Shown in pieces: positions 44,145 through 59,702 of a stretch of DNA of 64,000 nt. A program made the translations under genes and the position numbers. Source of the DNA: Albimonas marina (lineage in GTDB: Bacteria > Pseudomonadota > Alphaproteobacteria > Rhodobacterales > Rhodobacteraceae). How positions within the stretch are numbered: position 1 is the first letter of the stretch; the number at the start of each line of letters is the position of its first letter. The stretch lies in assembly GCF_029223255.1 (NCBI RefSeq), contig NZ_JARHUC010000001.1, positions 310,001 to 374,000 on the forward strand. Reading direction: 5' to 3'. A model generated the notes under the pieces. That model did no database searches and was not told where the DNA came from. It saw only the letters and a program-made list of their open reading frames with translations.

Positions 44145-45713
44145 TCAGCCCGCGACCGCGTCCCAGTCCAGCCCATGCCGCGCGAGGTACTTGCGCAGCC
44201 GATCCGCATCGTTGGTCGAGCTGCGCCGCGCGCGGGAGGCCGCGAACAGCCGCCGGCCGGCCTCGCTCAGGCTGGGCGCGCCGCGGCAGGCGCGGATCAC
44301 CTCGGCGAGCTGCACACGGTCGAACGGGTCGATCTCCGCCGCCGCCTCGCCCAGCACATCCGCCAGCAGGCGCAGGTCCGCATCCGGCGCGGCGCGGGCC
44401 CAGGTCGCGCGGAGGCGGGCGATCTCCTCCTCGACCAGCGCGCGGGTGACTCGGCCCCGCGGGGCCAGCGTCGACAGCCGCAGGACCGAGGCGCCGAAGT
44501 CCCGGAAGTTCCCCGGCCAGGGCGTGCCGGGATCGCGGGCGAAGCGCAGGAACGTGGCCCGCGCATCGGCGTTGAAGCCCACGCGCGCGCCCAGCGCCCG
44601 CTCGACCCGCGCAAGCTCGAAGGCGAGGTTCGGCTCGATGTCGTCGCGGCGGTCCCGCAGCGGCGGCAGGGTGAAGCGCCACAGGTCCAGCCGCGCGAGC
44701 AGGTCCGGTCGGAACCGGCCCTCGGCCACCAGCGAGGCGAGGTCGCGGTTCGCCCCCGCGATGACATGGAAGCGGCTGGTCGCGGGCTGGTCGGCGCCCA
44801 GCGGATAGAAGCTCCCCGTCTCGATCGCGTGCAGCAGCACCGCCTGCTCCCGCGGGCCCAGCTCGTCGATCTCGTCGAGGAAAAGCACCCCGCCGTTCGC
44901 CTCGCGCAGCAGGCCGTTGCGCTCGCCGGCCTGCGCGCCGCCCTGCCCGCGGCGCTGGCCGAACAGGGTCGAAAGCGCCGTCGCCTCCGACAGGGTCGCG
45001 CAGTTGATCTGCACGAACTTCCCCTTCACGCGCCGCCGCTCCCGCTTCAGCTCGTAGATCCGCCGGGCGAGCTCGGACTTGCCCGTCCCCGTCTCCCCCA
45101 GCAGCAGGATCGGCGCGTCGGAGCCGGTGGCGGCCAGCTCGATGCGGTCGATCAGCAGGTTGAAGGCGGGGTCGCGCGTCTCGATCCCGCCCTTGAGCTG
45201 GTCGGAATGCTCCCGCGCCAGCAGGTCGAACCGTTGCTGGAGTGCGTCGTAGCGGCTGAGGTCGAGGTCGATCACGGCCATCGAGCCCTCGGTCTCGGTC
45301 GCGCGCGGGGGCGAGGTCTGGATCAGGCGGGCGGGGACGTGCCGGCTCTCGGTCAGCAGGAACCAGCAGATCTGGGCGACATGGGTGCCGGTGGTGAGGT
45401 GGACGAAATAGCTCTCCCGATCCTCGTCGAAGCCGTAGCCGCGCGCGAAGTCGAACAGCTTCCCGTAGACCTCCTGGAAGTCCCAGGGATCGGCGAGGTC
45501 GAGACGCTGGAGCAGAACCTCGGTCTCGGGGGAGGCCGCCTCGATCTCGGCCTTCACCTGCACGGCGAGGCGGTTGTGGCGGTGGTCGTGCAGCAGTTCG
45601 ATGCGGTCGACCTCGAACCCCTCCTGCGCGATCAGGCTCGGCGTCGGGCGCCAGCGCCGCTTCTTGCCGGCGTCGAGCTGCGTGCCGAGGAACCCGAGGA
45701 CCACGTTGCGCAT
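44145..45713 (-). CDS. rtcR: RtcR-type CARF/AAA+ transcription activator
   Basis: RtcR controls the RNA-repair operon. The 522-residue protein has an N-terminal CARF-type ligand domain (MRNVVLGFLGTQLDAGKKRR, VHLTTGTHVAQICWFLLTES), which in relatives senses 2',3'-cyclic-phosphate-ended RNA or nucleotides. A AAA+ domain follows, with Walker A LLGETGTGKSELARRI and Walker B GGVLFLDEIDELG. A C-terminal region with a helix-turn-helix-like segment ends the protein. The usual GAFTGA loop that contacts sigma-54 is replaced by G-Q-G-G-A-Q at the aligned position (DNA near 44930-44945). It is divergent from rsr with a 178-bp gap. Confidence 0.92.
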   Translation of the reverse strand: MRNVVLGFLGTQLDAGKKRRWRPTPSLIAQEGFEVDRIELLHDHRHNRLAVQVKAEIEAASPETEVLLQRLDLADPWDFQEVYGKLFDFARGYGFDEDRESYFVHLTTGTHVAQICWFLLTESRHVPARLIQTSPPRATETEGSMAVIDLDLSRYDALQQRFDLLAREHSDQLKGGIETRDPAFNLLIDRIELAATGSDAPILLLGETGTGKSELARRIYELKRERRRVKGKFVQINCATLSEATALSTLFGQRRGQGGAQAGERNGLLREANGGVLFLDEIDELGPREQAVLLHAIETGSFYPLGADQPATSRFHVIAGANRDLASLVAEGRFRPDLLARLDLWRFTLPPLRDRRDDIEPNLAFELARVERALGARVGFNADARATFLRFARDPGTPWPGNFRDFGASVLRLSTLAPRGRVTRALVEEEIARLRATWARAAPDADLRLLADVLGEAAAEIDPFDRVQLAEVIRACRGAPSLSEAGRRLFAASRARRSSTNDADRLRKYLARHGLDWDAVAG

Positions 45714-45891
45714 GACGCCTTATCCCATTCGATAAATCCCTATCTCTCCGGATCGTAATCGCGCGCCGTCGAATCGGCAACGCTGCGAAATCCGTCTAAA
45801 AATCAACAGCATGTTCGGATTCCCGATTTTCCTCGGTCGCCCCGCCGCCCCATGCGACACCTCTCCCCGTCAACAGAAGGACGAGAGAGAA
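45714..45891. promoter_or_regulatory. rtcR-rsr divergent regulatory region
   Basis: The 178-bp gap is AT-richer than most of the window, especially 45720-45840. A GCCG-N6-CGGC dyad lies near 45765-45778. I looked for a sigma-54 -24/-12 element (GG-N10-GC with good flanks) on the plus strand and did not find a convincing one. The rsr start is preceded by AAGGACGAGAGAGAA. Confidence 0.5.
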
Positions 45892-47460
45892 ATGGCGAAC
45901 AGATCCGTGTTTGCCTCGACCAGAGGCCGGCTGTCCCCGAAGGCGGACGCCACGACCGCCCACGGGACGCCGGCCTATTCCTACGCCGCGCCCCACGCCC
46001 TGGCCCAGATGGCCGTGACCGGCAGCTTCGGGGGCGCCTACTACGCCAAGCCCGAGATGCAGCTCGACCGCGTGCTGTCGCTGGCTGGAGCCGTGGAGCC
46101 CGCGTTCCTGGCCCGCACGGCGATCCACGCGCGCCGGGTCGGGCGGATGAAGGACATGCCCGCGGTGCTGCTGGCGGTGCTGGCCTCCCGCGATCCGGCG
46201 CTGTTCCGCGCGGTCTTCGGGCGGGTGGTCGCCAACGGGCGGATGCTGCGCACGTTCGTGCAGATCCTCCGCTCGGGGCGCACCGGGCGGAAGTCGCTGG
46301 GCTCGGCCCCCAAGGCGATGGTGGCGGGGTGGCTGACCTCGGCCTCCGACCGCGCCCTGCTGGAGGCCGCGATCGGGACCTCGCCCTCGCTGAAGGACGT
46401 GATCCGCATGGTCCACCCCAAGCCCGACAGCCGGGAGCGGGAGGCGCTGTTCGCCTGGATCCTGGGCCGCCCGTGCGAGGCCGCGCGCCTGCCGCAGGCG
46501 GTGCGCGACTGGATCGCCTTCCAGGAGGCCGGGCCGCAGGCCTGGACCGGGCCGCTGCCGGAGGTGCCGTTCCAGATGCTGACCCAGGCGCCGCTGACGC
46601 AGGCGCAGTGGGCCGGGATCGCGCGGAACGGTTCCTGGCAGATGCTGCGCCAGGGGCTGAACATGCTGCTGCGCCACGGCGCCTTCGAGGATCCGGAGAC
46701 GGTCGCGGCCGTCGCCGCCCGCCTCTCAGACCCCGAGCGGATCGAGGCGGCGGGGGCCCTGCCCTACCAACTGCTCGCCGCGATCGGCCATGTCGATCCG
46801 CGGATGCCGGGCGAGATCGTCGAGGCGCTGCACCTCGCGATGGATCACGCCGTCCGCCGGGCGCCTGCGCTGGAGGGCGCGGTCGTGGTCTGCCCCGACG
46901 TCTCGGCCTCGATGCTCGGGTCGGTGACGGGGGTGCGCAAGGGCGCGACCTCGGCGATGCGCCACGTGGACTTGGCGGGCCTGGTCGCGGCGGCGATCCT
47001 GCGGCGCAATCCGCGGGCCGAGGTTCTGCCCTTCGCCCGGGCGCTCCGCCCGATCCGGCTGGAGCCGCGGGACACGGTCGCCAGCAACGCGCGGCGGCTG
47101 GCGGAGATCGCGGGCGGCGGCACCGATTGCTCGGCCCCGCTGCGGGCGCTGAACGCCCGCGGGGCGCGGCCGGACCTGGTGGTGATGATCTCGGACAACC
47201 AGTCCTGGATCGACGCCGCCCACGCCGGGCGCGGCACGGCGACGATGACCGAATGGCTGGCGCTGCGCGCCCGCCATCCCTCGGCGAAGCTCGTCTGCAT
47301 CGACATCGCCCCCTACGGGACGACGCAGGCGGCGGAGGTCGAGGGGGTGCTGAACGTCGGCGGCTTCTCCGACGCGGTGTTCGACCAGATCGGACGCTTC
47401 GCCCGGGGCGAGATGCACCCCGACCGCTGGATGGCCGAGATCGAGGCCATCGCGCTCTGA
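45892..47460 (+). CDS. rsr: Ro60-like TROVE-domain RNA-binding protein Rsr
   Basis: Rsr is the bacterial Ro60 orthologue, a ring-shaped protein that binds Y RNAs and misfolded RNAs and can direct exonucleases. The ATG at 45892 gives 522 residues. A HEAT-like ring domain (residues 30-345) includes TPAYSYAAPHALAQMAVTGSF and an NMLLRHGAF segment. A vWA domain follows with a complete metal site: D-V-S-A-S, a later GGTDCS, and ISDNQSW. It is divergent from rtcR and directly upstream of two Y-RNA-like genes and rtcB, matching the known rsr-Y RNA-rtcB arrangement of enteric bacteria. Confidence 0.93.
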   Translation: MANRSVFASTRGRLSPKADATTAHGTPAYSYAAPHALAQMAVTGSFGGAYYAKPEMQLDRVLSLAGAVEPAFLARTAIHARRVGRMKDMPAVLLAVLASRDPALFRAVFGRVVANGRMLRTFVQILRSGRTGRKSLGSAPKAMVAGWLTSASDRALLEAAIGTSPSLKDVIRMVHPKPDSREREALFAWILGRPCEAARLPQAVRDWIAFQEAGPQAWTGPLPEVPFQMLTQAPLTQAQWAGIARNGSWQMLRQGLNMLLRHGAFEDPETVAAVAARLSDPERIEAAGALPYQLLAAIGHVDPRMPGEIVEALHLAMDHAVRRAPALEGAVVVCPDVSASMLGSVTGVRKGATSAMRHVDLAGLVAAAILRRNPRAEVLPFARALRPIRLEPRDTVASNARRLAEIAGGGTDCSAPLRALNARGARPDLVVMISDNQSWIDAAHAGRGTATMTEWLALRARHPSAKLVCIDIAPYGTTQAAEVEGVLNVGGFSDAVFDQIGRFARGEMHPDRWMAEIEAIAL

Positions 47461-47511: not shown

Positions 47512-47656
47512 GGCCTCGGCGAATGCCGCTGGAACTACAGTCATCACCTCGCGGGTTGCGGGTTCGAATCCCGCCGCGACGGCCCCCGGTCCCGACCGGG
47601 GCCTGCGCGTAGCTCAACGGTAGAGCAGCGGTTCCAGCACCCTCGTCGCCGAGGCC
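47512..47656 (+). ncRNA. yrlA: Y RNA (YrlA-like) with permuted tRNA mimic
   Basis: Ends pair in an 11-bp helix (47512-47522 with 47646-47656). Then come an internal loop (5' ATGCC, 3' ACCCTCG), an 8-bp helix (47528-47535 with 47631-47638), and a tRNA-like head. The head has a T-arm at 47558-47574 (GCGGG-TTCGAAT-CCCGC), a stem formed by 47575-47590 and 47595-47609 closed by a CCCG loop, then TA and a D-arm at 47612-47626 (GCTC-AACGGTA-GAGC). In a tRNA the D-arm comes first; here the order is T-arm, acceptor, D-arm, a circular permutation closed at the acceptor. Bacterial YrlA-type Y RNAs are known tRNA mimics that bind Rsr. Exact transcript ends are unknown. Confidence 0.85.
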
Positions 47657-47665
47657 TTTTCGACC

Positions 47666-47780
47666 GCCGGGAGGAATGCCTGCGGGACTACATTGGACGC
47701 CGGTCCGCCGGCTGCCGGTTCGAGCCCGGCTACGCCCCGTTTCGGGGCGGGAGAGTCCCGCACCCTCTTGTCCTCCCGGC
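47666..47780 (+). ncRNA. second Y RNA-like gene, reduced tRNA mimic
   Basis: The fold repeats that of the upstream RNA with different helix sequences: a 10-bp outer helix (47666-47675 with 47771-47780), the same 5' loop ATGCC with CCCTC on the 3' side, a 9-bp inner helix (47681-47689 with 47754-47762), a T-arm at 47714-47730 (GCCGG-TTCGAGC-CCGGC), and a 7-bp acceptor-like stem CGCCCCG/CGGGGCG (47733-47749) closed by TTT. No D-arm is present: only GGAG joins the acceptor stem to the inner helix. Conserved loops with covarying helices argue for a functional RNA bound by the same protein. It ends 37 bp before rtcB. Confidence 0.8.
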
Positions 47781-47817: not shown

Positions 47818-49236
47818 ATGACCGTCTCGACGGCCGCCCCGATCGCCGGCCCCATCACCGGAGAGGACCTGAAGGCCTGGGGCCACCGCCCCGGCCCGCA
47901 GTTCCCGATGCTGCTTGCCAGGGCCGAGAGCCTGCAGGCCGAGGGGCTCGACGCCGAGGCCCTGCGCGCCGCGCTGGAGGCCGAGAAGCCCACGCCCCCC
48001 GTGAAGATCGAGCCCCGCGCCCCCGGCGCGCTCCCCTTCCACGAGCTGCTGGAGCCGTGCGACCCGGACGAGATGGACAACCTCGCCAAGGTCCGCGAGA
48101 CGATGGTCGAGCTGATGCGCACCCCCACCCTCGAGGCCGGCGCGGTGATGCCCGACGCCTGCCCCGCGGGGCCGGTCGGCACGATCCCCGTGGGCGGCGT
48201 GGCCGCGGCGCGCAACGCGATCCATCCGGGCATGCACTCGGCCGACATCTGCTGCTCGCTGATGCTGACCGACCTCGGTCACGCGGACCCGGCGGCGGTG
48301 CTGGACGCAGCCCAGGCGATCACCCATTTCGGGCCCGGCGGACGGCCGCAGGGGCGGCGCTTCACCGTCTCGCTGAAGCTGCTGGACGCGTTCCGGGCGA
48401 ACCCGTTCCTCGACCACCCCAAGGCGATCGAGACGGCGCAGGCGCACATGGGCACGCAGGGCGACGGGAACCACTTCCTGTTCGTCGGCCGCTCCCGCGC
48501 CACGGGGCGCACGGCGATGGTCACCCACCACGGCTCCCGCGGGCCGGGGGCGCTGCTCTACAAGCACGGGATGAGCGTGGCCGAGCGGTTCCGCAAGCGG
48601 CTCTCGCCCGGCACGGCGAAGCAGAACGCCTGGATCCCGGCGGACACGCCGGAGGGCGAGGCCTACTGGGAGGCGTTGCAGCTGATCCGCAAGTGGACCA
48701 AGGCCAACCACAACGCCCTCCACCAGGCGGTGGTCGAGGCGGTGCGGGCCGAGCCGGGGGAGCGGTACTGGAACGAGCACAACTTCGTCTTCCGGCGGAA
48801 CGGGCTCTACCTGCACGGCAAGGGGGCGACGCCGGCCTGGGACGGCTACGCCGCCGACGCCACGGGGCGCACGCTGATCCCGCTGAACATGGCGGAGCCG
48901 GTGCTGGTGGTCCGCGGGCGCGACGACGGCCGGGGCCTGGGCTTCAGCCCGCACGGCGCCGGGCGCAACTTCTCGCGCTCCGAGCATCGTCGGCGGATGG
49001 CGGGGCGCACGGCCGAGGCGTTGCTGGCGGCCGAGACGCAGGGCCTCGACATCCGCTTCCACGCAGGCGGGGTCGACGTGTCGGAGCTGCCGTCGAGCTA
49101 CAAGTCGGCCGCGACCGTGACCGCCCAGATCGAGCGCTTCGGCCTGGCGGAGATCGAGGACTTCATCGATCCCGTCGGCTGCCTGATGGCCGGCGACCTG
49201 CCCCCGTTCCGCGGCGGCCGCAAGACCCGGCGCTGA
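47818..49236 (+). CDS. rtcB: RNA-splicing ligase RtcB
   Basis: RtcB joins RNA 2',3'-cyclic phosphate or 3'-phosphate ends to 5'-OH ends with GTP and Mn2+. The 472-residue protein shows the metal-site motif HSADICCSLM (Cys ligand), HMGTQGDGNHFLFVG, MVTHHGSRGPG, NHNALH, and the guanylation motif SPHGAGRNFSR with the nucleotidyl His. It is somewhat longer than the 400-residue E. coli enzyme because of an N-terminal extension of about 60-70 residues. An AAAGGAATGGAAAG site precedes the ATG. No rtcA cyclase follows; the next gene is convergent. Confidence 0.95.
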   Translation: MTVSTAAPIAGPITGEDLKAWGHRPGPQFPMLLARAESLQAEGLDAEALRAALEAEKPTPPVKIEPRAPGALPFHELLEPCDPDEMDNLAKVRETMVELMRTPTLEAGAVMPDACPAGPVGTIPVGGVAAARNAIHPGMHSADICCSLMLTDLGHADPAAVLDAAQAITHFGPGGRPQGRRFTVSLKLLDAFRANPFLDHPKAIETAQAHMGTQGDGNHFLFVGRSRATGRTAMVTHHGSRGPGALLYKHGMSVAERFRKRLSPGTAKQNAWIPADTPEGEAYWEALQLIRKWTKANHNALHQAVVEAVRAEPGERYWNEHNFVFRRNGLYLHGKGATPAWDGYAADATGRTLIPLNMAEPVLVVRGRDDGRGLGFSPHGAGRNFSRSEHRRRMAGRTAEALLAAETQGLDIRFHAGGVDVSELPSSYKSAATVTAQIERFGLAEIEDFIDPVGCLMAGDLPPFRGGRKTRR

Positions 49237-49315: not shown

Positions 49316-52300
49316 TCAGAAGCGGACGTTCACGCTCAGCCGGCCGGCTTGGCCGGCGTAGCCGTCGCCCGCCGCGCCCTCGTAGCTGACGCCCACGTCG
49401 GCGCGGTCCCCGACCTCCAGCGCGACCCCGAGGCCGAGGCGACCCACCGCCTGCGCCTGCGCCGCGCCGTTGGCGAAGCCGGCGATGCCGGTGGCGTCGC
49501 GGGCGAAGCGGACGTCGGCGTCGTAGGAGTCGAGGGTCGAGAAGCTGACCCCCGCCCGCGCCCAGGCCCGCAGGCCCAGCGGATCGCCGCCGCTCTCGCC
49601 CAGCTCCCGCCGCAGGCCCGCCTCCAGCGAGGGGGTCACGACGAAGGCCGTGGCGGCGGCGTCCGAGACGCGCAGCGCCTGCCGCCCCGCGCCGGTCTCG
49701 GTGAAGCCCTGCGAGGAGACGTGGATCAGGTCGAGGTCGAGCGAGGGCTTCAGCCACGCGCCCCCCTCCAGCGCCTGCGTCCAGGCCGCCCGCGCCCGCA
49801 GCCCGAGGCTGAGCGCCCCGTGCTCCGACCGCGCCTGGCCCGGCGCGAGCGGCCCGGCGAAGCGGCGGGAGTCGAACTCCGACCACCCCGCCGTGGCGGC
49901 GCCGCTCAGCGACAGCGCCCCCCTCTCCCGGGTCACCGCGGCGCCGAGGAAGCCGGTGGTCCCCTCGACCGAGCCGCCGCCGCCCTGGCGGGCGAGGTTC
50001 AGCGTCTCCCACCCGAGGGCGCCCGAGACCAGCCAGCCCGGCGCGACCTCCAGCGTCGTCGCGAAGCCCGCGGTCCAGGCGTCGCCCTCGTAGCCGGCCG
50101 CGGCCCCGCTGGCGTCCTGGTCCAGGTGGCGGCCCGAGCCCAGCAGGGTCAGGTAGCCGCCCAGGCCCCCGGTCTCCCAGTCGACGCTGCGCCCGCCGGT
50201 CTCTCCGCAGCCGAGCAGGGTGTCGAAGCGGTCGCGGGTCAGCTCGAAGGTCGCGGCCTCGCCCGCCATCGTGGCGCCCAGCGTGGCGCCCGACAGGGCC
50301 GAGCCCAGCGCCCCGCCCTGCGCCGCCAGCTCCAGCTTGCCGAACAGGCGGGCGAAGTCGCGGTCCCCGGTCAGGAACAGCCGCTCGAGGTAGCGGGCGG
50401 CCTCGGCCTCCTGCCCGCCGAGGCCCGAGGCGAGCTCGACCCCCGTCGCGCGGAGCGTCACGCCCCCGTTCTCGATGCGCTGCTCGAAGCGGAAGATCGC
50501 GCCGCCCAGCCGGTCGAAGGCGCCAAAGATGTCGCCTCCGACCTCCATCACCCGGTGCTCCGCGCCCCCGATCAGGGCCCGCGGCGCGAGGCTGAGCGCC
50601 CCGTCGAGCGTCGCGTCGCCCGCCACGCGGATCACGTCGCCCCGGCCCTTCAGGGGCTCGGCGTCGACCGCCAGCGTCCCGCTCGACCCCTGCTCGAAAT
50701 CGCCGGCGATGACGAGATCGGCATGGTCCCCGGGATCCCCCGCGACCAGCAGGCCGCGGTTCAGCACGTCGGCGTCGTAGCGCTCGGCCCCCCGCAGCAC
50801 GCCGCCGCGGCGGTTGACCAGGGTGATCGCCGGCGGCGGCGCCGGCCGGACCGCCAGAACCTCGGGCCCCGCGGCGAGGGACGCCGCCGCCCCGCCCGGC
50901 GTCCTGACGCCCCGCGGACCGAAGGCAGAGCCGTCGACCCCGCCCTCGACCCGTCCCTTCTTGAAGGAGACGTTTCCGTCGATGACGCCCGCGTTGCGGA
51001 TCGAGAGATGCGAGTCGTAGGGGTCGTTTCGGGTGATGTAGCGGATCGCCTCGCCCGACAGCGCCGTGATCGTTGCGCCCTGGAAGACGGTGATCGCGTT
51101 CTCCGCCCCGCCCCCATGCATCAGCAGGCCGTAGGCCGAGGGGCCCGAGCCGCCCTGCACGTAGCCGTTGATGAAGGCGTCGATCCAGACGTCCTGCATC
51201 CCCCGGCCGTTGGCGGCGCCCAGGCTCTGCAGGAACACCGCGGTGCTGTTGCGGCCGTTGGCGATCACCGCCGCCTCGGGCTGCATGATGAAGTCGATCG
51301 CGCCGCCGCGGCCGACGTCGCCGTTGGTGTTCAGCCCGGCGAAGGGGCCCTGGGCGTCGCCGCCCAGGCCCCCGCCGCCGCCCAGCGACTGGGCGATGAC
51401 GCCGTAGGCGCCGTCGCCGTAGGTGACCAGGGGCCGGTCCACGTTGACGCCGACATAGCCGGCGTCGCCCTCGCCGTTCATCTGCTCGATGGTGCTGGGG
51501 GCGTAGCCGACCGACCGGCTGTAGATCAGGGTCAGCCCGTCGGCGAGCGAGACGTCGCCGCCGATGCCGCCGCCGCCGGCGATGGACTGGGCCACGATGC
51601 CGTGGGCGCCCTCGCCATAGGTGGTCGCGCAGGTGTCGAGCGCAGTCAGCGAGCAGCCCTGCGGACCGCCGAGCGTGACGTCGACCGAGCCCGCGCCCGC
51701 CGTGCCGCGGTAGCCCTCGAGCCCGCCGAGCCGCACCTCCGAGACGCTCCCCGAGCCGGCCGAGGCGATGCCCCCGCCGCCCGAGATCGACTGGGCGACG
51801 ATGCCGATGGCCCGGTCGCCGACGGTCACGAGCCGACCGTAGAAGCCGACGTTCACGTCGTCGGCCCGGTCGGCGCCCTCGCCGCCCCGGCCGCCCAGCT
51901 GCAGCGTCACGTTCTTCTGCGCGCCGCCGATCCGCGCCACGCCGCCGCCGCCCGCGATGGACTGCGCCGCCAGCGCGTGGGCGTCGTCGCCCCGGGTGAC
52001 CACCCGGGCGAGGGAGCTGGTCTCGGCCCCGGTGGGACCTTCGCCGGCGTATTCCCGCAGGATCTGCGCCTTGCCCGCGCCGCGGTCGTCGTCGCCGGCG
52101 CTGGTCGCGCCCAGGGTCAGGACCGCGCCGTCGGCGGAGTGGCCGAAGCTCGCCGCCCCGCCGCCGCCGCCGATCGACTGCACCAGCACCCCGTAGGCGC
52201 CCGCGCCCTCGGTGTCGATCGAGCCGCCGCCCACGCCGCGCCCGGTGTGGGTCAGCGACGCCTTGCCGGCCCGGCCGCCGCCCTGGGTCTGGCCCAGGGT

Positions 52301-55300
52301 CAGCGACGCGCGCGGCCCGGCGCCTGCGCCGTCGCCGATGTCGGCGAGGCCGCCGCCGCCGGCGATGGACTGCACCACCAGCCCGTCGGCGTAGTCGCCC
52401 GAGGTGGCGATCCCGCCGCCGAAGGTCATCGCCACGTCGGCGTTCCAGCCGCCGGTGGCGCCGGTCGCGCCCAGCTGCACGGGCAGGACGCCGCCGCTCC
52501 AGCCGTCGCGGCCGTTAGGCGCCGAGGCCTGGCCGCCACCGCCCGAGATCGACTGCACCACCACGCCGCGCGCGGCGTCGCCCGCGGTCTGCACCCGCGT
52601 GGCCCCGGCCGGGTCCACGCCCATCTCGACCGCGACCGCGCCCCCGTAGGAGCTGCCGCCGCCCGAGGCGCCCAGCGTGACGCGCGACAGCCACGGGGCC
52701 GGCGTCAGCGCCAGCCCCCCGCCGCCGCCCACCGACTGCACCAGCGCCGCGGTCGACCCGGCGCCGCCGGTGACCAGGGTCGCCTCGCCGATGTCGAGGG
52801 TCAGGTCGCCCGGATCGGCGATCGCGTCGCCGTTGCGGTTCGCCTGGCCGGTGCCGTTGGAGCCGCCGAGACGCATCTCGACCACCCCCTCGCGGTTCGA
52901 GACCGCGAGCGGCTGCGAGGTTCCCAGCGCCCCGACGCCGCCGCCGCCCACCACGTTCTGCACCAGCAGGCCGATCGCGCCGTCGCCGCCGGTCTGGATC
53001 AGCGCGTCGTCGCCCATCGTGGCGCTCAGCGCCGCGGACCCGAAGGTCCCGCCGTAGTCGCCGCCGACCAGCAGGCCGGTCCGGCCGGAACCGGTGGTTG
53101 CGCGCACGGTCGTCGAGCCGACGGCCGCGATGCCGCCGCCGCCCTGGATCTCCTGGATCACCGCGCCGTTGGCGCCCCAGCCATTGGTGAAGAACGTGCT
53201 GCCCGAGAGCGTCACGTCCAGCCCCCCGGCCGCCGCGGTCTGGTCCACGCCCTGGACCTTCTGGCGGTCCGCCGCCCCGGCCGAGGTCGCGCCCGAGGCG
53301 CCGACCCGGATCGAGACCGAGGCCATGGAGTCCGAGGTCGGATCGTGGCTCAGCCCCGCGACCCCGCCGCCGCCGGAGATCGACTGCACGATCGCCGCCT
53401 CGGCATGGTCGCCCCAGGTGCGGATCCAGCCGCCCAGCTCGGTCACGACATGCAGGTTCTGCATCCCGATCTCGGGCGAGGACTGGCCGAGGTCGATGCG
53501 CATCTTGTAGGCGTTCGGGTCGGGCGTGTTGGCCGCCGGCTGCGGCGGGATCTTCTTGCCGTTCGCCTCGTCGAGCGTCCAGGACGCGCCGCCGGCGGAG
53601 CCGATCACGCCGCCCCCGCCGCCGATCGCCTGCACCACCACCGCGTCGGCGTCGGCGCCGTAGGTCTGGATGTCGCCGTCGGCCACGAAGCTCGCGGCCT
53701 CGGGGACCTCGTCGGGCGAGACGTTGGCGCCCAGGATCGAGATCTCGCGGGTGACCGTGGTGGACTCGCCCGCGCTCGCGCGCTCCAGCAGCTCGAAGCC
53801 GTTGGCGACGCCGCCGCCGGCCTGCACGCTCTGCGCCACGATCCCCCGCGCCCCCACGCCCAGCGTGGTGATGAAGGAGCCGTCGTCCAGGGAGACGTCG
53901 AACCGGTCGGCGCCGCCGCAGGGGATGTTCGGCAGGCAGCCGGAGGCCGAGCCCATCGTCACCACGCCGGAGGAGAGCGAGGTGGTCTGCGCCCGGTCGA
54001 TCTCGGCCGGGGTCAGCACGACCACGCCGCCGCCGACGCCGACCGACTGCACGATCGCCGCATAGCCGGCGTCGCCGCGGGTGGTGACGTCGTCCACGAG
54101 ATGCATCGTCGCGCCGCCCGCGTGCCCGGCCCCGTAGGTCTCGACGCCCGAGCCCAGCGTCAGCTCGAACAGCAGGTCCAGCGCGGCCTGCTCCGCGTTC
54201 TCGGGATCGTAGCGGCGCAGGGCCGAGCCGTAGGCGAGCGTCGACATCGTGGTGCCGCCGCCGCCCGCCACCGACTGCACGATCACGCCGGGGGAGGCGT
54301 AGCCGTTGGCGTTGATCTTGGTGCCGTGCTCGAGCCGCGCCGCGACCGGGCCCGCGTCGCCCTGGCCGCCGTCGGCGCCGTGACGCAGCAGGCGCGCGCC
54401 CTCGATGCCCGAGACGCCGCCGCCGCCGCCGACCGACTGCACGATCAGGCCCGGGCTGCGCACGCCGTTGGTGACGATGCGGAAGGCGCCCTGCGCCGCG
54501 GCCTCGCCGCCGTTCCCGCCGCGCCCGCCGTCGCCGCCGGCGATGAAGTCGAGATGCGCGCCCCGGAACAGGGCGTTGAAGTTGTCGACGAAGATCGTGC
54601 GGTCGTCGACGTCGAGATGCTTCAGCGACAGCTCGGCCGCGGTCAGCGGCGCCGTGCCGATGCCGCCCATGCCGCCGCCGCCGCCCACCGACTGCACCGT
54701 CAGGCCGAAGGCCGCGGCGCCGTTGGTGGTGATGCGCCCGCCCTCGCCGTTCGCCTCGGCGCGGGCGGCGTTCGCGCCCTCGCCGCCCTCGCCGGAGCCG
54801 CCGATGCCCAGGCGCACGGCCGCCGCAGGCAGCGCCTCGTCGCCGCGGTCGTAGAGCGAGGCGACGTCGAGCTCCTCGAACGCCGCGTCCTCGTTGGTCT
54901 GGGGCTCGCCGTCCTCCTCGGGGGCCTCGGTCTCGGCGTCGATCCCGAGGTTGCCGACCAGGCGGGAGGCGCTGCCGCCCATGCCGCCGCCGCCGCCGAT
55001 GGACTGCAGCAACACGCCATGCGCGCGGTCGCCGTAGGTCAGCACCTCGGCGTCCTCGCCCAGGCGGAAGCCGACCTGGCCGCCCTTGCCGCCCGCGCCG
55101 CCGGTGCCGCCGATGCGCAGGGACAGGTCGAGGAAGCCGATGGAGTCGTGGGGCACCGCGCCCCCGCCCACGCCGCCGCCGCCGCCGATGGACTGCAGCA
55201 CCACGCCGTCGGCGTAGTCGCCATGGGTGACCACCGCGCCGTCGAGCGTGGGCATCATGAAGCGCGTCGCGTCGCCGGACTCCACCTCGGTGGCCGCCAC

Positions 55301-58300
55301 CGCGAAGTCGCCGCCTGCGCCGCCCTCGCCGCCGCGGCCGCCCACGTTGACGTTCAGCGCCCAGGGCCGCTCGATCTGCTCCTTGATCTCCTGCAGCTCG
55401 AGGCCGAAGTCGATCACGTTCTTCTCGCCGTCCTCCTCGGCGCCGCCGCCGCCGAAGTTTCCGCCCAGGCCGCCGCCGCCGCCGACGCTCTGCAGCAGCA
55501 CGCCGTCGCCGTCGGCGCCGAAGGTCTCGATCACGCCGGCCAGGTTCGCCTCGGCGATGCGTCCGCCTTCGCCGCCGCCGCCGCCGGTCATGCCCACGCC
55601 CACCGTCAGGCGGGGCGCCTTGAGCTTGCCGTTCAGCTTCTGCAGCACCGCGTCCGTCAGCTTCGAGGTGAACGAGACCGACGCGGTCTGCGAGGCGCCG
55701 CCGCCGCCGCCCACGCCGTGCATCACCATCCCGCGCGCGCCCTCGCCATGGGTGCGCAGGTAGGTCTCGGCGCCCAGGTCGGCCGTCATGCGCCCGGCGT
55801 CGCTGGCGCCGTCGCCGCCGTAGCCGCCGATGTTGATCGCCATCTTCACGCCGACGCCTTCGCCGAACTTCTTGGTGCCCGCGCCCGCGACGCCGCCGTT
55901 GCCGCCGCCCTTGGCGATGCTCTGCGCCAGGATCGCGTTCGAGTTCGGACCCCAGGTCTCGATCGCCGTCGCGCCTTCCAGGCTCAGGTCGACGTCGCCG
56001 CCGGTGCCGCCGGCGCCGCCGTTGCCGCCCATCGAGATCGAGACGGAGGTGTTGACCTTCAGCGACTTGACGTTCGGCTCCTCCTCGCCCGGGATCGCCT
56101 CCTTCAGCCGGTCGATGAACAGCGAGGCCGCCGCCATCGAGGAGCCGTCGCCCCCGTCGCCGCCGCCGCCGCCGACGGACTGGGCCAGGATCCCGTGGCC
56201 GCCGTCGCCCCGCGTGGCGATGCTCACGTCCGTGAGGTCGAGCGAGACCGCCTTGCCCTCGCCGCCCTTGCCGCCCTTGCCGCCGACCGCCGCCGCGCCG
56301 GCGATGGCGACCTGCAGGTCGAAGGCCGGGATCGGCAGGTCGATCGCATAGGCCAGCGCGTCGGCCGAGCCGCCGAGGCCGCCGCCCCCGCCCACCGACT
56401 GCGCCACCAGGCCGTGGTTGTTCGACACCCCGTCCTTCAGCGCGTCGCCGCCCGTGGCGATGGAGACGTCGTCGAGGCTGATCTTCACCTCCCCGGCGTC
56501 GCCGCCTTCGCCGCCCTTGCCGCCGACCGCCACCGCGCTGCCGAAGCCCACGCTGACGTCGGTGGAGGTGGCCGCGCCGCCGGCGCCGCCCCCGCGCCCG
56601 ATGGAATGCGCGACCAGGCCGCGGGCGTGGCTGCCCCAGGTGGTCACGTCCAGCGCCTCGGCCGTGATGTCGACCTCGCCGCCCTCGCCCCCGGTCGAGC
56701 CGCCGCCGGCGATGGCCACCGAGGTCAGCGCGAAGACCCCGAAGGAGAGCGAGCGCGCGTCGCCCCCGGTGCCGCCGCCGCCGCCGATCGACTGCACCAG
56801 CGCGCCATGGGCGTTGTCGCCCTGGGTGAAGATGCTGTTGCGCAGGCCCTCGTCGCCCGCCTCGACCTCGAGCGTCACCTTGCCGCCGTCGCCGGTCGTT
56901 CCGCCGTCGCCGCCCACTGCCACGTTGGGCACGCGGGAGGCGATGGCGAACACGTCGCCGCCGTTGCCGCCGCCGCCGCCGATGGAATGCGCCAGCAGGC
57001 CGAAGGAATACTTGCCCCGGGTCTGGATGTTGGTTCCGGAGTGGAGCGTCGCGGTCACCGCGCCGCCCGCGCCGCCGCCGCCGCCCTGGCCGCCGACGGT
57101 GGCGACGCCCGCCGCCCCGCCCACGTCGATCACGTCGCCGCCGCCGCCGCCGATGGACTGCAGCACCGCGCCCGCCGAGGCGTCGGCCCTGGTCAGGATG
57201 CGGCCGCCGTCGCTCTCGAGCACGACCTCCCCGCCCGGGGTGCCGTCGCCGCCGGCGCCGGCCACCACCACGCCCTCGTCCGTGTCCGCGGTGACCCCGG
57301 CGCCGTCGGTGGTCAGCGACCCGCCGCCGCCCGCGATCGACTGCATCAGCAGCCCGTGGGAGCCGTAGCCGTCGGTGCGCACGTCGAAGCGGCCCGCGGC
57401 GCTGACCTTGCCCGCGGTCCCGCTGTTGCCGCCCTTGGTCTCGCCGGCGCTGAACAGCGAATACTCCGAGTCGGCCGACCCGCCGCCCCCCGCCAGCGAC
57501 TGCATCACGATGCCGATCGAACGGCCGTACTGGGTCGAGATCACCGGCGCGACGCCGTCCTCGCCCGTCGGCAGGACCAGGGTCACGTCGCCGGCATTGC
57601 CGCCGCGACCCGCCTCCGAGCCGTGGAAGTCGACCAGCCCGCCCGGCGTGCGCACGCCGCCGCCCGAGCCGCCCTTGGCGTGGATCATCACCCCCGCCGA
57701 GTTCGCCCCCTGGGTGACGATCGAGGCGCCCGAGCCCAGCACGACCTTCAGGTCGCCCGTGTCGCCGCCGCGCCCGCCGTTGGAGTTGGTGGAGTTGCCG
57801 AGCCCCCCCAGCGCCCCCTGGGCGTAGAGCGCCACGCCCATGATGTTGTTGCCGGCGACGTCGACCTGGGCCCCGTCGGCGAGCTTGATGCGCGAGGTCC
57901 CCAGGGCCCCGGTCTCCGGGTCTATGCCCGCGTCGCCGCCCTGGCCGCCGTCGGCCCGCGAGATCCCGTCCTTCGACGCGCCCCCGGCCGCGCCGTAGGT
58001 GGCGGCCAGGATGCCGGCGGACTGGTAGATGAAATAGGGGATCGCCTCGACCTGGCAGACCGCGCCTTCCAGGCAGGCGCGGTCGATCACCTCGTCCTCG
58101 GGCGTCGCGGCCGGGGCGGAGTCGCGGGTGCGCAGCTCGATGCGCCCGTCATGAGCAACGTCGACCCGGCCCGAGTCGCCGCCGTCGCCGCCGTCCACGC
58201 CGATCGACTTGGAGGTGATGCCGGCGTAGCCCGCCTGGCTCGCCGCGAAGATTCCGTAGGCGTGGCCGGTCCTGTCGACATAGGTGCGCAGCAGGATGTC

Positions 58301-59272
58301 GCCCACGCTGTCGACGGACACCGCGCCGGCGTCGCCGCCCGAGGAGGTGGGATCGGCGCCGTGGCCGCTGGCGCTCTGCGCATAGATGCCGGCCGCGAGA
58401 TCGCTCAGCGGATCCGGGCCGACCTTGCAGTCGAGCGAGAGGACGTCGCACATCCGGATGCTTCCGGTGTTGGTCACCGTCACCTGGCCGGCGTCGCCGG
58501 CGCTGCCGCCCCGGGGCTCGCCGTCGGTGGTGTCGCGCTCGCCGCCCGAGCCGGAGGTGCTGGAGGCGAGGATCGCCACCGCCCCGACCCGCGGCGTCCC
58601 GAAGGCCTGCGCGGCCGAGGCCGGCTCGAAGTCGATCCTCCCGGCGTTGGTGACGTCGACCGTGCCCCCGTCGCCCCCGTCGCCCCCGTCGCCGCCGCCG
58701 AAGGTCTGGTCGCGCGCGTCGCGTCCCTCGCCGCCGACCGAGGCGGCGTAGAGGCCGAAGACCAGGCCGCCGCGGTCCCACAGGCCGGCGGCGGAATCGT
58801 CGCCGCCATGGGCCGCGAAGTTCAGGTCTCTCACCGAGATGCTCGACTGGTTGTCGAGGGTGATCTCGCCGCCCGCGCCGCTCGCGCCCGCGTCGTCCTT
58901 GTCGTCCGCCCCCTGTCCGCCGCGCAGCCGCACGGCCAGGCCTGCGAACTGCCCGCGGTCCGGGATCCAGCCCAGCGTGTTGTAGTTGGTCAGGGTGTAG
59001 GAGCCCGCTGGATCGGCGTCCTGGTCGTCGTCGCCGGTCGCGTTCGGACCGGTGAACAGGACCTGCGCGCCGGCGACGCCGGCGTCCGCGGGAATGGTGC
59101 AGGATTCGGGCCCCACCCGCCCCGGCGGGCAATCGGCCAGCTGCGCGGCGGCCCGCGTCGCGACGAGCGCCCCGCTCATCCCCAGCGCCGCGGCGCAGCA
59201 GGACCCGAGCAGCACGGCGCGCAGCCGCGGACGCGCGCCGACGGCGCGCGTGTCGATGATCTGAAAGGACAT
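49316..59272 (-). CDS. giant Gly-rich autotransporter with beta-barrel domain
   Basis: The start is set at ATG 59272 (after GGGGAAGCCGTC), giving 3318 residues. An extended signal peptide (about residues 15-43, RAVLLGSCCAAALGMSGALV then ATRAAAQ) leads into a passenger of about 2950 residues made of many degenerate repeats around a VLVQSIGGGGGxGG core, each usually followed by polar beta-strand segments. The last 300 or so residues (from LGCGETGGRSVDWE) form a type V autotransporter barrel ending in VNVRF with the terminal Phe. Several passenger loops carry close Cys pairs (SLDCKV, ACLEGAVC, GCLPNIPCGG, TCATT). It is likely a surface fibre or adhesin; target unknown. Confidence 0.92.
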   Translation of the reverse strand: MSFQIIDTRAVGARPRLRAVLLGSCCAAALGMSGALVATRAAAQLADCPPGRVGPESCTIPADAGVAGAQVLFTGPNATGDDDQDADPAGSYTLTNYNTLGWIPDRGQFAGLAVRLRGGQGADDKDDAGASGAGGEITLDNQSSISVRDLNFAAHGGDDSAAGLWDRGGLVFGLYAASVGGEGRDARDQTFGGGDGGDGGDGGTVDVTNAGRIDFEPASAAQAFGTPRVGAVAILASSTSGSGGERDTTDGEPRGGSAGDAGQVTVTNTGSIRMCDVLSLDCKVGPDPLSDLAAGIYAQSASGHGADPTSSGGDAGAVSVDSVGDILLRTYVDRTGHAYGIFAASQAGYAGITSKSIGVDGGDGGDSGRVDVAHDGRIELRTRDSAPAATPEDEVIDRACLEGAVCQVEAIPYFIYQSAGILAATYGAAGGASKDGISRADGGQGGDAGIDPETGALGTSRIKLADGAQVDVAGNNIMGVALYAQGALGGLGNSTNSNGGRGGDTGDLKVVLGSGASIVTQGANSAGVMIHAKGGSGGGVRTPGGLVDFHGSEAGRGGNAGDVTLVLPTGEDGVAPVISTQYGRSIGIVMQSLAGGGGSADSEYSLFSAGETKGGNSGTAGKVSAAGRFDVRTDGYGSHGLLMQSIAGGGGSLTTDGAGVTADTDEGVVVAGAGGDGTPGGEVVLESDGGRILTRADASAGAVLQSIGGGGGDVIDVGGAAGVATVGGQGGGGGAGGAVTATLHSGTNIQTRGKYSFGLLAHSIGGGGGNGGDVFAIASRVPNVAVGGDGGTTGDGGKVTLEVEAGDEGLRNSIFTQGDNAHGALVQSIGGGGGTGGDARSLSFGVFALTSVAIAGGGSTGGEGGEVDITAEALDVTTWGSHARGLVAHSIGRGGGAGGAATSTDVSVGFGSAVAVGGKGGEGGDAGEVKISLDDVSIATGGDALKDGVSNNHGLVAQSVGGGGGLGGSADALAYAIDLPIPAFDLQVAIAGAAAVGGKGGKGGEGKAVSLDLTDVSIATRGDGGHGILAQSVGGGGGDGGDGSSMAAASLFIDRLKEAIPGEEEPNVKSLKVNTSVSISMGGNGGAGGTGGDVDLSLEGATAIETWGPNSNAILAQSIAKGGGNGGVAGAGTKKFGEGVGVKMAINIGGYGGDGASDAGRMTADLGAETYLRTHGEGARGMVMHGVGGGGGASQTASVSFTSKLTDAVLQKLNGKLKAPRLTVGVGMTGGGGGEGGRIAEANLAGVIETFGADGDGVLLQSVGGGGGLGGNFGGGGAEEDGEKNVIDFGLELQEIKEQIERPWALNVNVGGRGGEGGAGGDFAVAATEVESGDATRFMMPTLDGAVVTHGDYADGVVLQSIGGGGGVGGGAVPHDSIGFLDLSLRIGGTGGAGGKGGQVGFRLGEDAEVLTYGDRAHGVLLQSIGGGGGMGGSASRLVGNLGIDAETEAPEEDGEPQTNEDAAFEELDVASLYDRGDEALPAAAVRLGIGGSGEGGEGANAARAEANGEGGRITTNGAAAFGLTVQSVGGGGGMGGIGTAPLTAAELSLKHLDVDDRTIFVDNFNALFRGAHLDFIAGGDGGRGGNGGEAAAQGAFRIVTNGVRSPGLIVQSVGGGGGVSGIEGARLLRHGADGGQGDAGPVAARLEHGTKINANGYASPGVIVQSVAGGGGTTMSTLAYGSALRRYDPENAEQAALDLLFELTLGSGVETYGAGHAGGATMHLVDDVTTRGDAGYAAIVQSVGVGGGVVVLTPAEIDRAQTTSLSSGVVTMGSASGCLPNIPCGGADRFDVSLDDGSFITTLGVGARGIVAQSVQAGGGVANGFELLERASAGESTTVTREISILGANVSPDEVPEAASFVADGDIQTYGADADAVVVQAIGGGGGVIGSAGGASWTLDEANGKKIPPQPAANTPDPNAYKMRIDLGQSSPEIGMQNLHVVTELGGWIRTWGDHAEAAIVQSISGGGGVAGLSHDPTSDSMASVSIRVGASGATSAGAADRQKVQGVDQTAAAGGLDVTLSGSTFFTNGWGANGAVIQEIQGGGGIAAVGSTTVRATTGSGRTGLLVGGDYGGTFGSAALSATMGDDALIQTGGDGAIGLLVQNVVGGGGVGALGTSQPLAVSNREGVVEMRLGGSNGTGQANRNGDAIADPGDLTLDIGEATLVTGGAGSTAALVQSVGGGGGLALTPAPWLSRVTLGASGGGSSYGGAVAVEMGVDPAGATRVQTAGDAARGVVVQSISGGGGQASAPNGRDGWSGGVLPVQLGATGATGGWNADVAMTFGGGIATSGDYADGLVVQSIAGGGGLADIGDGAGAGPRASLTLGQTQGGGRAGKASLTHTGRGVGGGSIDTEGAGAYGVLVQSIGGGGGAASFGHSADGAVLTLGATSAGDDDRGAGKAQILREYAGEGPTGAETSSLARVVTRGDDAHALAAQSIAGGGGVARIGGAQKNVTLQLGGRGGEGADRADDVNVGFYGRLVTVGDRAIGIVAQSISGGGGIASAGSGSVSEVRLGGLEGYRGTAGAGSVDVTLGGPQGCSLTALDTCATTYGEGAHGIVAQSIAGGGGIGGDVSLADGLTLIYSRSVGYAPSTIEQMNGEGDAGYVGVNVDRPLVTYGDGAYGVIAQSLGGGGGLGGDAQGPFAGLNTNGDVGRGGAIDFIMQPEAAVIANGRNSTAVFLQSLGAANGRGMQDVWIDAFINGYVQGGSGPSAYGLLMHGGGAENAITVFQGATITALSGEAIRYITRNDPYDSHLSIRNAGVIDGNVSFKKGRVEGGVDGSAFGPRGVRTPGGAAASLAAGPEVLAVRPAPPPAITLVNRRGGVLRGAERYDADVLNRGLLVAGDPGDHADLVIAGDFEQGSSGTLAVDAEPLKGRGDVIRVAGDATLDGALSLAPRALIGGAEHRVMEVGGDIFGAFDRLGGAIFRFEQRIENGGVTLRATGVELASGLGGQEAEAARYLERLFLTGDRDFARLFGKLELAAQGGALGSALSGATLGATMAGEAATFELTRDRFDTLLGCGETGGRSVDWETGGLGGYLTLLGSGRHLDQDASGAAAGYEGDAWTAGFATTLEVAPGWLVSGALGWETLNLARQGGGGSVEGTTGFLGAAVTRERGALSLSGAATAGWSEFDSRRFAGPLAPGQARSEHGALSLGLRARAAWTQALEGGAWLKPSLDLDLIHVSSQGFTETGAGRQALRVSDAAATAFVVTPSLEAGLRRELGESGGDPLGLRAWARAGVSFSTLDSYDADVRFARDATGIAGFANGAAQAQAVGRLGLGVALEVGDRADVGVSYEGAAGDGYAGQAGRLSVNVRF

Positions 59273-59702
59273 GACGGCTTCCCCAAGCACCCAATCCACC
59301 CGACGGACCCCGCCGAGCCGCCGCGTGCGCCATCTCCCACCAGACATCGGGACGCGGTTCACGTTACGTTTATCGAGGTGAATTGGTTTGGCAAGCATAT
59401 GAAATGGAATGGCATACCAGAATCCACGCCGGCCCTTCCCGGCTTGGCCGGCGTCGGAGTCCGCGCTGCGCGAGAATGCGCGCCGCGGTCCGCCGAAGGT
59501 TCCTGCACGAAACCGAATCGCCGCCGCCGAGCTCGCTCCGGCGCTTCGCTCCGCCTTGGATTCGAGGGTTGCGCGCCGGCCTCGGCCCGGATCTCCGTAT
59601 TGCGTCCGGCCTCTCCGATACGATGCGCGGCCTGATCTCCCGGGCGCTCCGACGCCGGCGTCCCAGCCCGGGCGACGCGATGCGGCGCCGCCCGGGCGAC
59701 AT
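59273..59702. other. autotransporter upstream region
   Basis: This 430-bp gap has no gene I can support. On the minus strand TTGCCA (59394-59389) and TAAACG (59372-59367) are spaced by 16 bp, about 95 bp before the autotransporter start. This is a weak promoter candidate in an AT-richer stretch (59355-59415). The rest, to the SDR stop at 59703, is GC-rich without clear features. Confidence 0.45.

Follow-up and report, generated by a model that had tools for sequence, protein, structure and literature searches.

RtcR has been treated as an activator of sigma-54 promoters, and the RtcR of Escherichia coli carries the GAFTGA motif. We analyzed a stretch of 64,000 nucleotides from the genome of Albimonas marina, hereafter called the window, in which an rtcR gene without this motif is found. 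The rtcBA promoter of E. coli is described as having a UAS, an IHF site and a -24/-12 element (PMC9650030). As far as they are described in PMC9650030 and PMC7790460, the RtcR proteins of E. coli and Salmonella resemble that of the window in belonging to NF038308, in having a CARF sensor, in standing divergent from an RNA-repair operon, and in how enhancer, IHF site and promoter follow one another; they differ in the use of sigma-54 and a -24/-12 promoter, whereas the clade of the window's protein has neither the GAFTGA loop nor the -24/-12 element.

Loss of GAFTGA accompanied by the use of sigma-70 is already known in other bEBPs. NtrC of Rhodobacter capsulatus, which lacks the motif, is reported to activate sigma-70 RNA polymerase from an enhancer; what it needs is the binding of ATP rather than its hydrolysis (work cited in PMC10274813). 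This protein is like the loopless RtcR in being a bEBP without GAFTGA, but it is a nitrogen response regulator with a larger loop deletion, whereas the loopless RtcR has a CARF sensor and an RNA-repair target. Caulobacter NtrC, an alphaproteobacterial bEBP without GAFTGA, acts at sigma-70 promoters and needs a Walker B residue, according to the account in PMC10274813, which also describes the GAFTGA loop of Rhodobacterales NtrC as deleted; the Caulobacter protein differs from the loopless RtcR in its eight-residue deletion and in its sensor and targets. For TyrR, DhaR and HupR, in which GAFTGA is altered, sigma-70 use has been shown or proposed, as it has for an EBP with an altered GAFTGA from Jannaschia sp. 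CCS1, whose genome is without rpoN (PMC3162934); VpsR/VspR provide a further precedent for an altered GAFTGA with sigma-70 use (PMC10274813). TyrR, DhaR, HupR and VpsR are not CARF proteins, and the portions of these papers that deal with the motif describe no promoter switch for them; the Jannaschia EBP could be an RtcR.

Despite the deletion stated for NtrC of Rhodobacterales, an NtrC-like protein of the genome of the window (L002; G000:C16:738805, plus strand) has GAFTGA. Its NtrX-like neighbor (L004; G000:C16:742730, plus strand) is without it, as is a HupR-like response regulator (L005; G000:C3:135907-136389, minus strand) with a degenerate Walker B (LFLNGVD). The names NtrC-like, NtrX-like and HupR-like are presumptive ones, given by resemblance.

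In the open-access literature, searched mostly at the level of titles and abstracts, no report of a loopless or sigma-54-independent RtcR was found. What appears to be new for RtcR is that the sensor family and the operon have stayed unchanged while the transcription machinery is different, and that the promoter switch is visible in the sequence. We consider it probable that one clade of loopless RtcR switched once, from sigma-54 to sigma-54-independent activation of the divergent RNA-repair operon.

The rtcR gene and RNA-repair operon

The rtcR gene of the window (44145-45713, minus strand) is an open reading frame of 522 amino acids, and encodes a regulator with CARF, AAA+ and HTH parts and without the GAFTGA loop. 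The protein scored 696.9 bits against NCBIfam NF038308 (cut-off 650), which identifies it as a bona fide RtcR, and matched both PF06956 and the sigma-54-type AAA+ domain PF00158. Residues 256-261, directly after FGQRR, are GQGGAQ in place of the GAFTGA (loop L1) expected of bEBPs, and are encoded at 44948-44931 on the minus strand; this replacement, claimed in the preliminary description, was confirmed by alignments of 55 and 131 proteins. A frameshift, a sequencing slip or an assembly error at the loop was ruled out, because GAFTGA is found in none of the 44 members of the clade and the change is therefore not a local sequencing error. In a structure model of the protein (mean pLDDT 85.3, pTM 0.54), loop residues 259-261 had pLDDT values below 50.

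As is typical of RtcR, the gene is divergent from an RNA-repair operon, in which Rsr and RtcB had been read correctly before. The operon, on the plus strand, contains rsr (45892-47460), which encodes a Ro60-like protein (PF25045, with NF041674 below its cut-off), two YrlA-like Y RNAs, and rtcB (47818-49236; PF01139, 3e-35), which belongs to a divergent subfamily. The two RNAs lie in tandem between rsr and rtcB, and one is just below and the other well below the Rfam gathering threshold: the first copy (47516-47655) matched RF02553 with 67.5 bits (gathering 69, E 1e-14), and the second (47669-47780) with 37 bits (E 6.9e-6). No tRNA gene was found by ARAGORN between rsr and rtcB, and a tRNA reading of this interval was dropped, since Rfam gives YrlA-like RNAs. 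On the minus strand at 49316-59398, there is an open reading frame of 3360 amino acids with many repeats such as VQSVGGGGG, which looks like a giant autotransporter.

Among 23 loopless loci of named genomes (up to 9.6 kb, several of them incomplete), rsr was found in 14 and a window-like rtcB in 19, and in some of them rtcB adjoins rtcR without rsr. RtcB of the window's kind scored 650-810 bits in the loopless named loci versus 40-61 bits in 14 of the 15 canonical loci holding both genes. This divergent RtcB subfamily accompanies the loopless RtcR, and a Devosia locus with a canonical loop (L110) also has one, at 542 bits.

Distribution and phylogeny of loopless RtcR

RtcR was searched for in 295 genomes of the family, which gave 17 matches above the NF038308 cut-off; two long ones that fell short of it (L027 and L028) were also kept. 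It was found in 12 of 385 genomes of the class and in one of three of the genus, and in the phylum a threshold of E 0.001 gave 28 of 398, of which 27 exceeded the cut-off. Named genomes were scanned with a profile, and the best 80 of 578 relatives were retained; this sample is biased toward the kin of the window's protein, because the profile was made from 20 loopless proteins. After removal of repeats, 131 distinct proteins were aligned, and the loop was called canonical in a wide sense when it fitted [GNS][AS][FY]TGA.

A canonical loop is present in 87 of the 131 proteins and absent in 44, which come from Rhodobacteraceae and a few relatives; 31 different hexamers are found at this place among the 44. 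None of the 19 proteins that the family contributed to the first set has the loop. The loss of the loop is thus real and clade-wide. The preliminary description had noted it in this organism, where it is indeed found, but it is not peculiar to this organism and affects the whole clade. As for the residues contacting sigma-54, which had been noted as missing, the Thr of GAFTGA is gone in 44 of 44 loopless proteins.

When a maximum-likelihood tree was built with the loop columns left out, by a quick method with no bootstrap, a single branch separated loopless from canonical proteins (SH-aLRT 99). Two proteins from other alphaproteobacterial families (L040 and L044) adjoin this split, and that of Roseibium (L092) falls inside the clade. 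The GAFTGA loop thus appears to have been lost by one change on the RtcR tree. Since a single switch is one event, counts such as 44 of 131 should not be taken as counts of independent origins.

Catalytic residues and selection

Walker A of the window's protein (GETGTGKS, 45075-45098, minus strand) is retained, and G..G.GK[ST] is found in all 44 loopless proteins. Walker B (44865-44885, minus strand) is LFLDE followed by I-D, and this last D marks the clade: in residue counts over the 131 proteins, the residue two past the Walker B Glu is D in 42 of 44 loopless proteins and G or A in all 87 canonical proteins. The Walker B Asp and the sensor II Arg are present in 44 of the 44, the two Arg fingers in 44 and 43, and the Asn of the PspF switch in 43; this Asn and the other catalytic residues are presumed to have the roles of their counterparts in PspF. 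The window's protein has Walker A, Walker B, the Arg fingers and sensor II, as expected of the AAA+ domain of bEBPs, and in lacking GAFTGA while retaining the ATP-binding site it resembles sigma-70-activating bEBPs such as R. capsulatus NtrC. The catalytic Glu of Walker B is replaced in 11 of 44 loopless proteins (D in five, Q in two, R in two, G in one and H in one) versus none of 87 canonical proteins; at least four changes on the tree are needed for this, and the Glu is retained in the other 33.

The variability of the loop columns and the loss of the catalytic Glu in a quarter of the proteins might be taken as signs of an RtcR that is decaying and functionless in the clade, a reading that we find scarcely credible in the light of the selection on the gene. 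The dN/dS ratio was 0.03-0.10 in five pairs of RtcR from genomes without rpoN (L012/L015, L079/L080, L096/L097, L076/L084 and L080/L085) and 0.09 in the pair L023/L087, of which only the L023 genome is without rpoN; dS was saturated in two further pairs. In addition, Walker A and sensor II are invariant, R254, R255 and R265, which flank the loop, are present in 44 of 44, a new majority loop of approximately S-[YHF]-T-G-Q-A-G-S-E-R is found, and the upstream sites described below are conserved. Most of the loops are of unchanged length. By these dN/dS ratios, RtcR is under purifying selection in genomes without rpoN.

Loss of the -24/-12 promoter

The gap between rtcR and rsr is 178 bases long and holds no -24/-12 site (best match 7/11, on the minus strand). 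In a search of either strand within 300 bases upstream of the window's rtcR, the best match was again 7/11, below the mean of 7.76 for mononucleotide shuffles, in agreement with the earlier statement that the gap has no such element. For comparison among loci, the 300 bases upstream of rtcR were scanned for TGGCAC-N5-TTGCW, and a -24/-12 element was called where 9/11 or more matched on the operon strand at a distance of 90-200 bases. It was present in 79 of 87 canonical loci versus 1 of 44 loopless loci, so that the target promoter usual for RtcR is missing from the window's clade. Mean best scores in the first set were 9.90 for canonical (n = 31) and 7.71 for loopless loci (n = 21), with shuffles giving 7.75 and 7.76. 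Seven canonical loci (L043, L074, L100, L109, L112, L151 and L152) are without an operon-strand site of at least 9, and canonical L140 has a 10/11 site farther away, at 283. The lone loopless match (L084, from a genome without rpoN) is the G block described below and is without the GC of -12. These scans of the window and the clade, which covered both strands, led us to reject a hidden sigma-54 site. Little weight should be given to the Fisher p value of 3e-25 for the association of loop and promoter, since related rows enter it as if they were independent. Three features changed together on a single branch: the loop, the residue following Walker B, and the -24/-12 promoter.

Retained and putatively rebuilt upstream sites

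Enhancer-like sites (ATCCnnnnnGATAA and GATA/ATCGTA, 45722-45757, plus strand) are, judging from column counts, retained from the sigma-54 kind; the enhancer-like ATCYNNNNNGATAA is found near rtcR in 39 of the 44 loci without the loop, in 55 of the 87 with it, and in 4-5% of shuffles. An IHF-like site (WATCARNNNNTTR, 45801-45813, plus strand), which has one mismatch in the window, is found in 37 of the 44 loopless loci, in 55 of the 87 canonical ones, and in 10-12% of shuffles.

Past the IHF-like site, loopless loci have TTTTYCTY at +26 and GSCAAAA at +53. In the window, the T block of a putative new core promoter is TTTTCCTC (45827-45834, plus strand; columns +26 to +33), and the G block is GCGACAC (45854-45860, plus strand; columns +53 to +59). 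The pair reaches at least 11/15 in 43 of 44 loopless loci, 16 of 87 canonical loci and 9.5% of shuffles. The distance between the canonical -24 box and the IHF-like site is 41-42 in 33 of 52 loci, and 52-53 in the rhizobial L062, L071 and L110, which have the same kind of rsr start; in L123, with this same kind of start, it is 41. Since the distances from the IHF-like site are equal, the G block occupies the place of the -24 box of L062, L071 and L110, and it may have descended from an ancestral -24 box.

The fixed spacing of the two blocks, which are unlike the -35/-10 consensus, could indicate that another sigma-70-family factor, of the RpoH or ECF kind, reads this element with or without RtcR. 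We regard this as quite improbable. In 21 genomes the two-block pattern was no commoner than its reversed control, which shows that it is not a general promoter motif, and it was rejected as a genome-wide one; moreover, we know of no sigma consensus that fits it. A scan of the operon strand for a consensus sigma-70 -35/-10 of rsr gave none above shuffles.

In the rsr leader of the window (approximately 45865-45891) and of relatives (L024, L079, L080 and L085), inspection by eye showed a short inverted repeat that surrounds the ribosome-binding site. On the minus strand, conserved columns and a scan gave a possible sigma-70-type promoter of rtcR (TTGCCG-17-TACGAT, 45752-45780), although such candidates as a group are only slightly above shuffles. 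This possible promoter overlaps the enhancer-like site, an arrangement by which RtcR could turn off its own expression. The overlap also bears on the idea that RtcR of the clade is no longer an activator: bound to the enhancer, it would repress, or regulate in both directions, until RNA ends relieve it, and the operon would be transcribed from a weak promoter of the ordinary kind. Repression is possible for TyrR-like bEBPs that have no loop, and some sigma-70 promoters are described as repressed by Caulobacter NtrC (PMC10274813). However, the enhancer-like site is located more than 100 bases upstream of rsr and the IHF-like site is retained between them, a layout that fits activation at a distance, and we think that repression is unlikely and that RtcR probably still activates in this clade.

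Presence of rpoN

The window genome has one rpoN gene, and for Albimonas marina itself the argument for sigma-54 independence therefore goes through its clade. By PF04552, with PF04963 in agreement, rpoN is absent from 12 of the 21 loopless first-set genomes and present in 31 of 31 canonical ones; completeness of the 12 genomes is at least 94% for eleven and 64% for the other (G196). For the named set TIGR02395 was used: 8 of the 24 loopless genomes had a true match, which in L098 was split in two, and 16 had none; rpoN was present in all 14 canonical genomes tested, out of 56 canonical named loci. Counted by distinct loopless protein, rpoN is absent for 27 of 44 and present for 17, while it is absent from none of the 45 canonical genomes tested. 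Its presence and absence require at least 11 changes on the RtcR tree, which implies that the loop switch came before many losses of rpoN or that genes moved between lineages. Family-wide, 65 of 100 sampled genomes have no rpoN match at E 0.001; since absence is so common, it is not a mark of RtcR carriers, and the telling point is that RtcR persists without rpoN.

Where rpoN exists, as it does in the genome of the window and in 16 more of the loopless ones, RtcR might still depend on sigma-54 through the altered loop and a weak -24-like box (TGSCA), and the -24/-12 match at the G block does average 5.5/11 versus a median of 2.8 at other offsets. We consider this very unlikely, because loci seldom retain the -24 GG and the -12 GC, the Thr of the loop is missing throughout the clade, and genomes without rpoN keep these promoter elements as well. 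With loop and promoter lost and many genomes without sigma-54, the RtcR switch must operate differently, and the sigma-54 independence of the loopless clade is close to certain.

Proposed mechanism

The preliminary description had proposed sigma-70-based activation. Its sigma-54-independent part is upheld by the losses of loop, promoter and, in 27 of 44, rpoN; its sigma-70 part is supported only in the wide sense of some sigma-70-family holoenzyme, by exclusion, with no -35/-10 above chance. A partner of the sigma-70 type is also suggested by analogy with R. capsulatus NtrC. In the sequence of events that we propose, the CARF domain would, like that of other RtcR proteins, sense RNA damage, the AAA+ ring would assemble on the enhancer, IHF would bend the DNA, and the ring would touch a sigma-70-family holoenzyme at the core element replacing -24/-12. 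In line with what is reported for NtrC of R. capsulatus, ATP would have to be bound, while its hydrolysis could be dispensed with at least in part, so that binding rather than hydrolysis may be the switch; activation with ATP binding alone is hinted at by the Walker B Glu loss in 11 of 44.

Counterpoints to this mechanism are the absence of an rsr sigma-70 consensus above chance, the catalytic Glu kept in 33 of 44, the need of Caulobacter NtrC, likewise loopless, for its Walker B residue (PMC10274813), and rpoN in the window genome. A bolder reading, to which we give somewhat less than even odds, is that a CARF damage sensor became an ATP-binding switch, with no remodelling motor, and activates the housekeeping RNA polymerase from an enhancer; the DNA would be bent by IHF, and the core promoter would have been rebuilt, in its old place, from the -24 box. 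On this reading a single switch predated repeated losses of rpoN in the family and let regulated RNA repair outlast them.

Significance

The name RtcR does not imply dependence on rpoN. One branch of RtcR was uncoupled from sigma-54: its loop, its promoter and partly its catalytic Glu changed, while the enhancer-like and IHF-like sites stayed. This provides a natural comparison for the long-standing question of what an AAA+ activator needs of its loop and motor, and the same comparison bears on how an enhancer-driven promoter leaves sigma-54. For the family, a large one often without sigma-54, the switch may provide regulated RNA repair.
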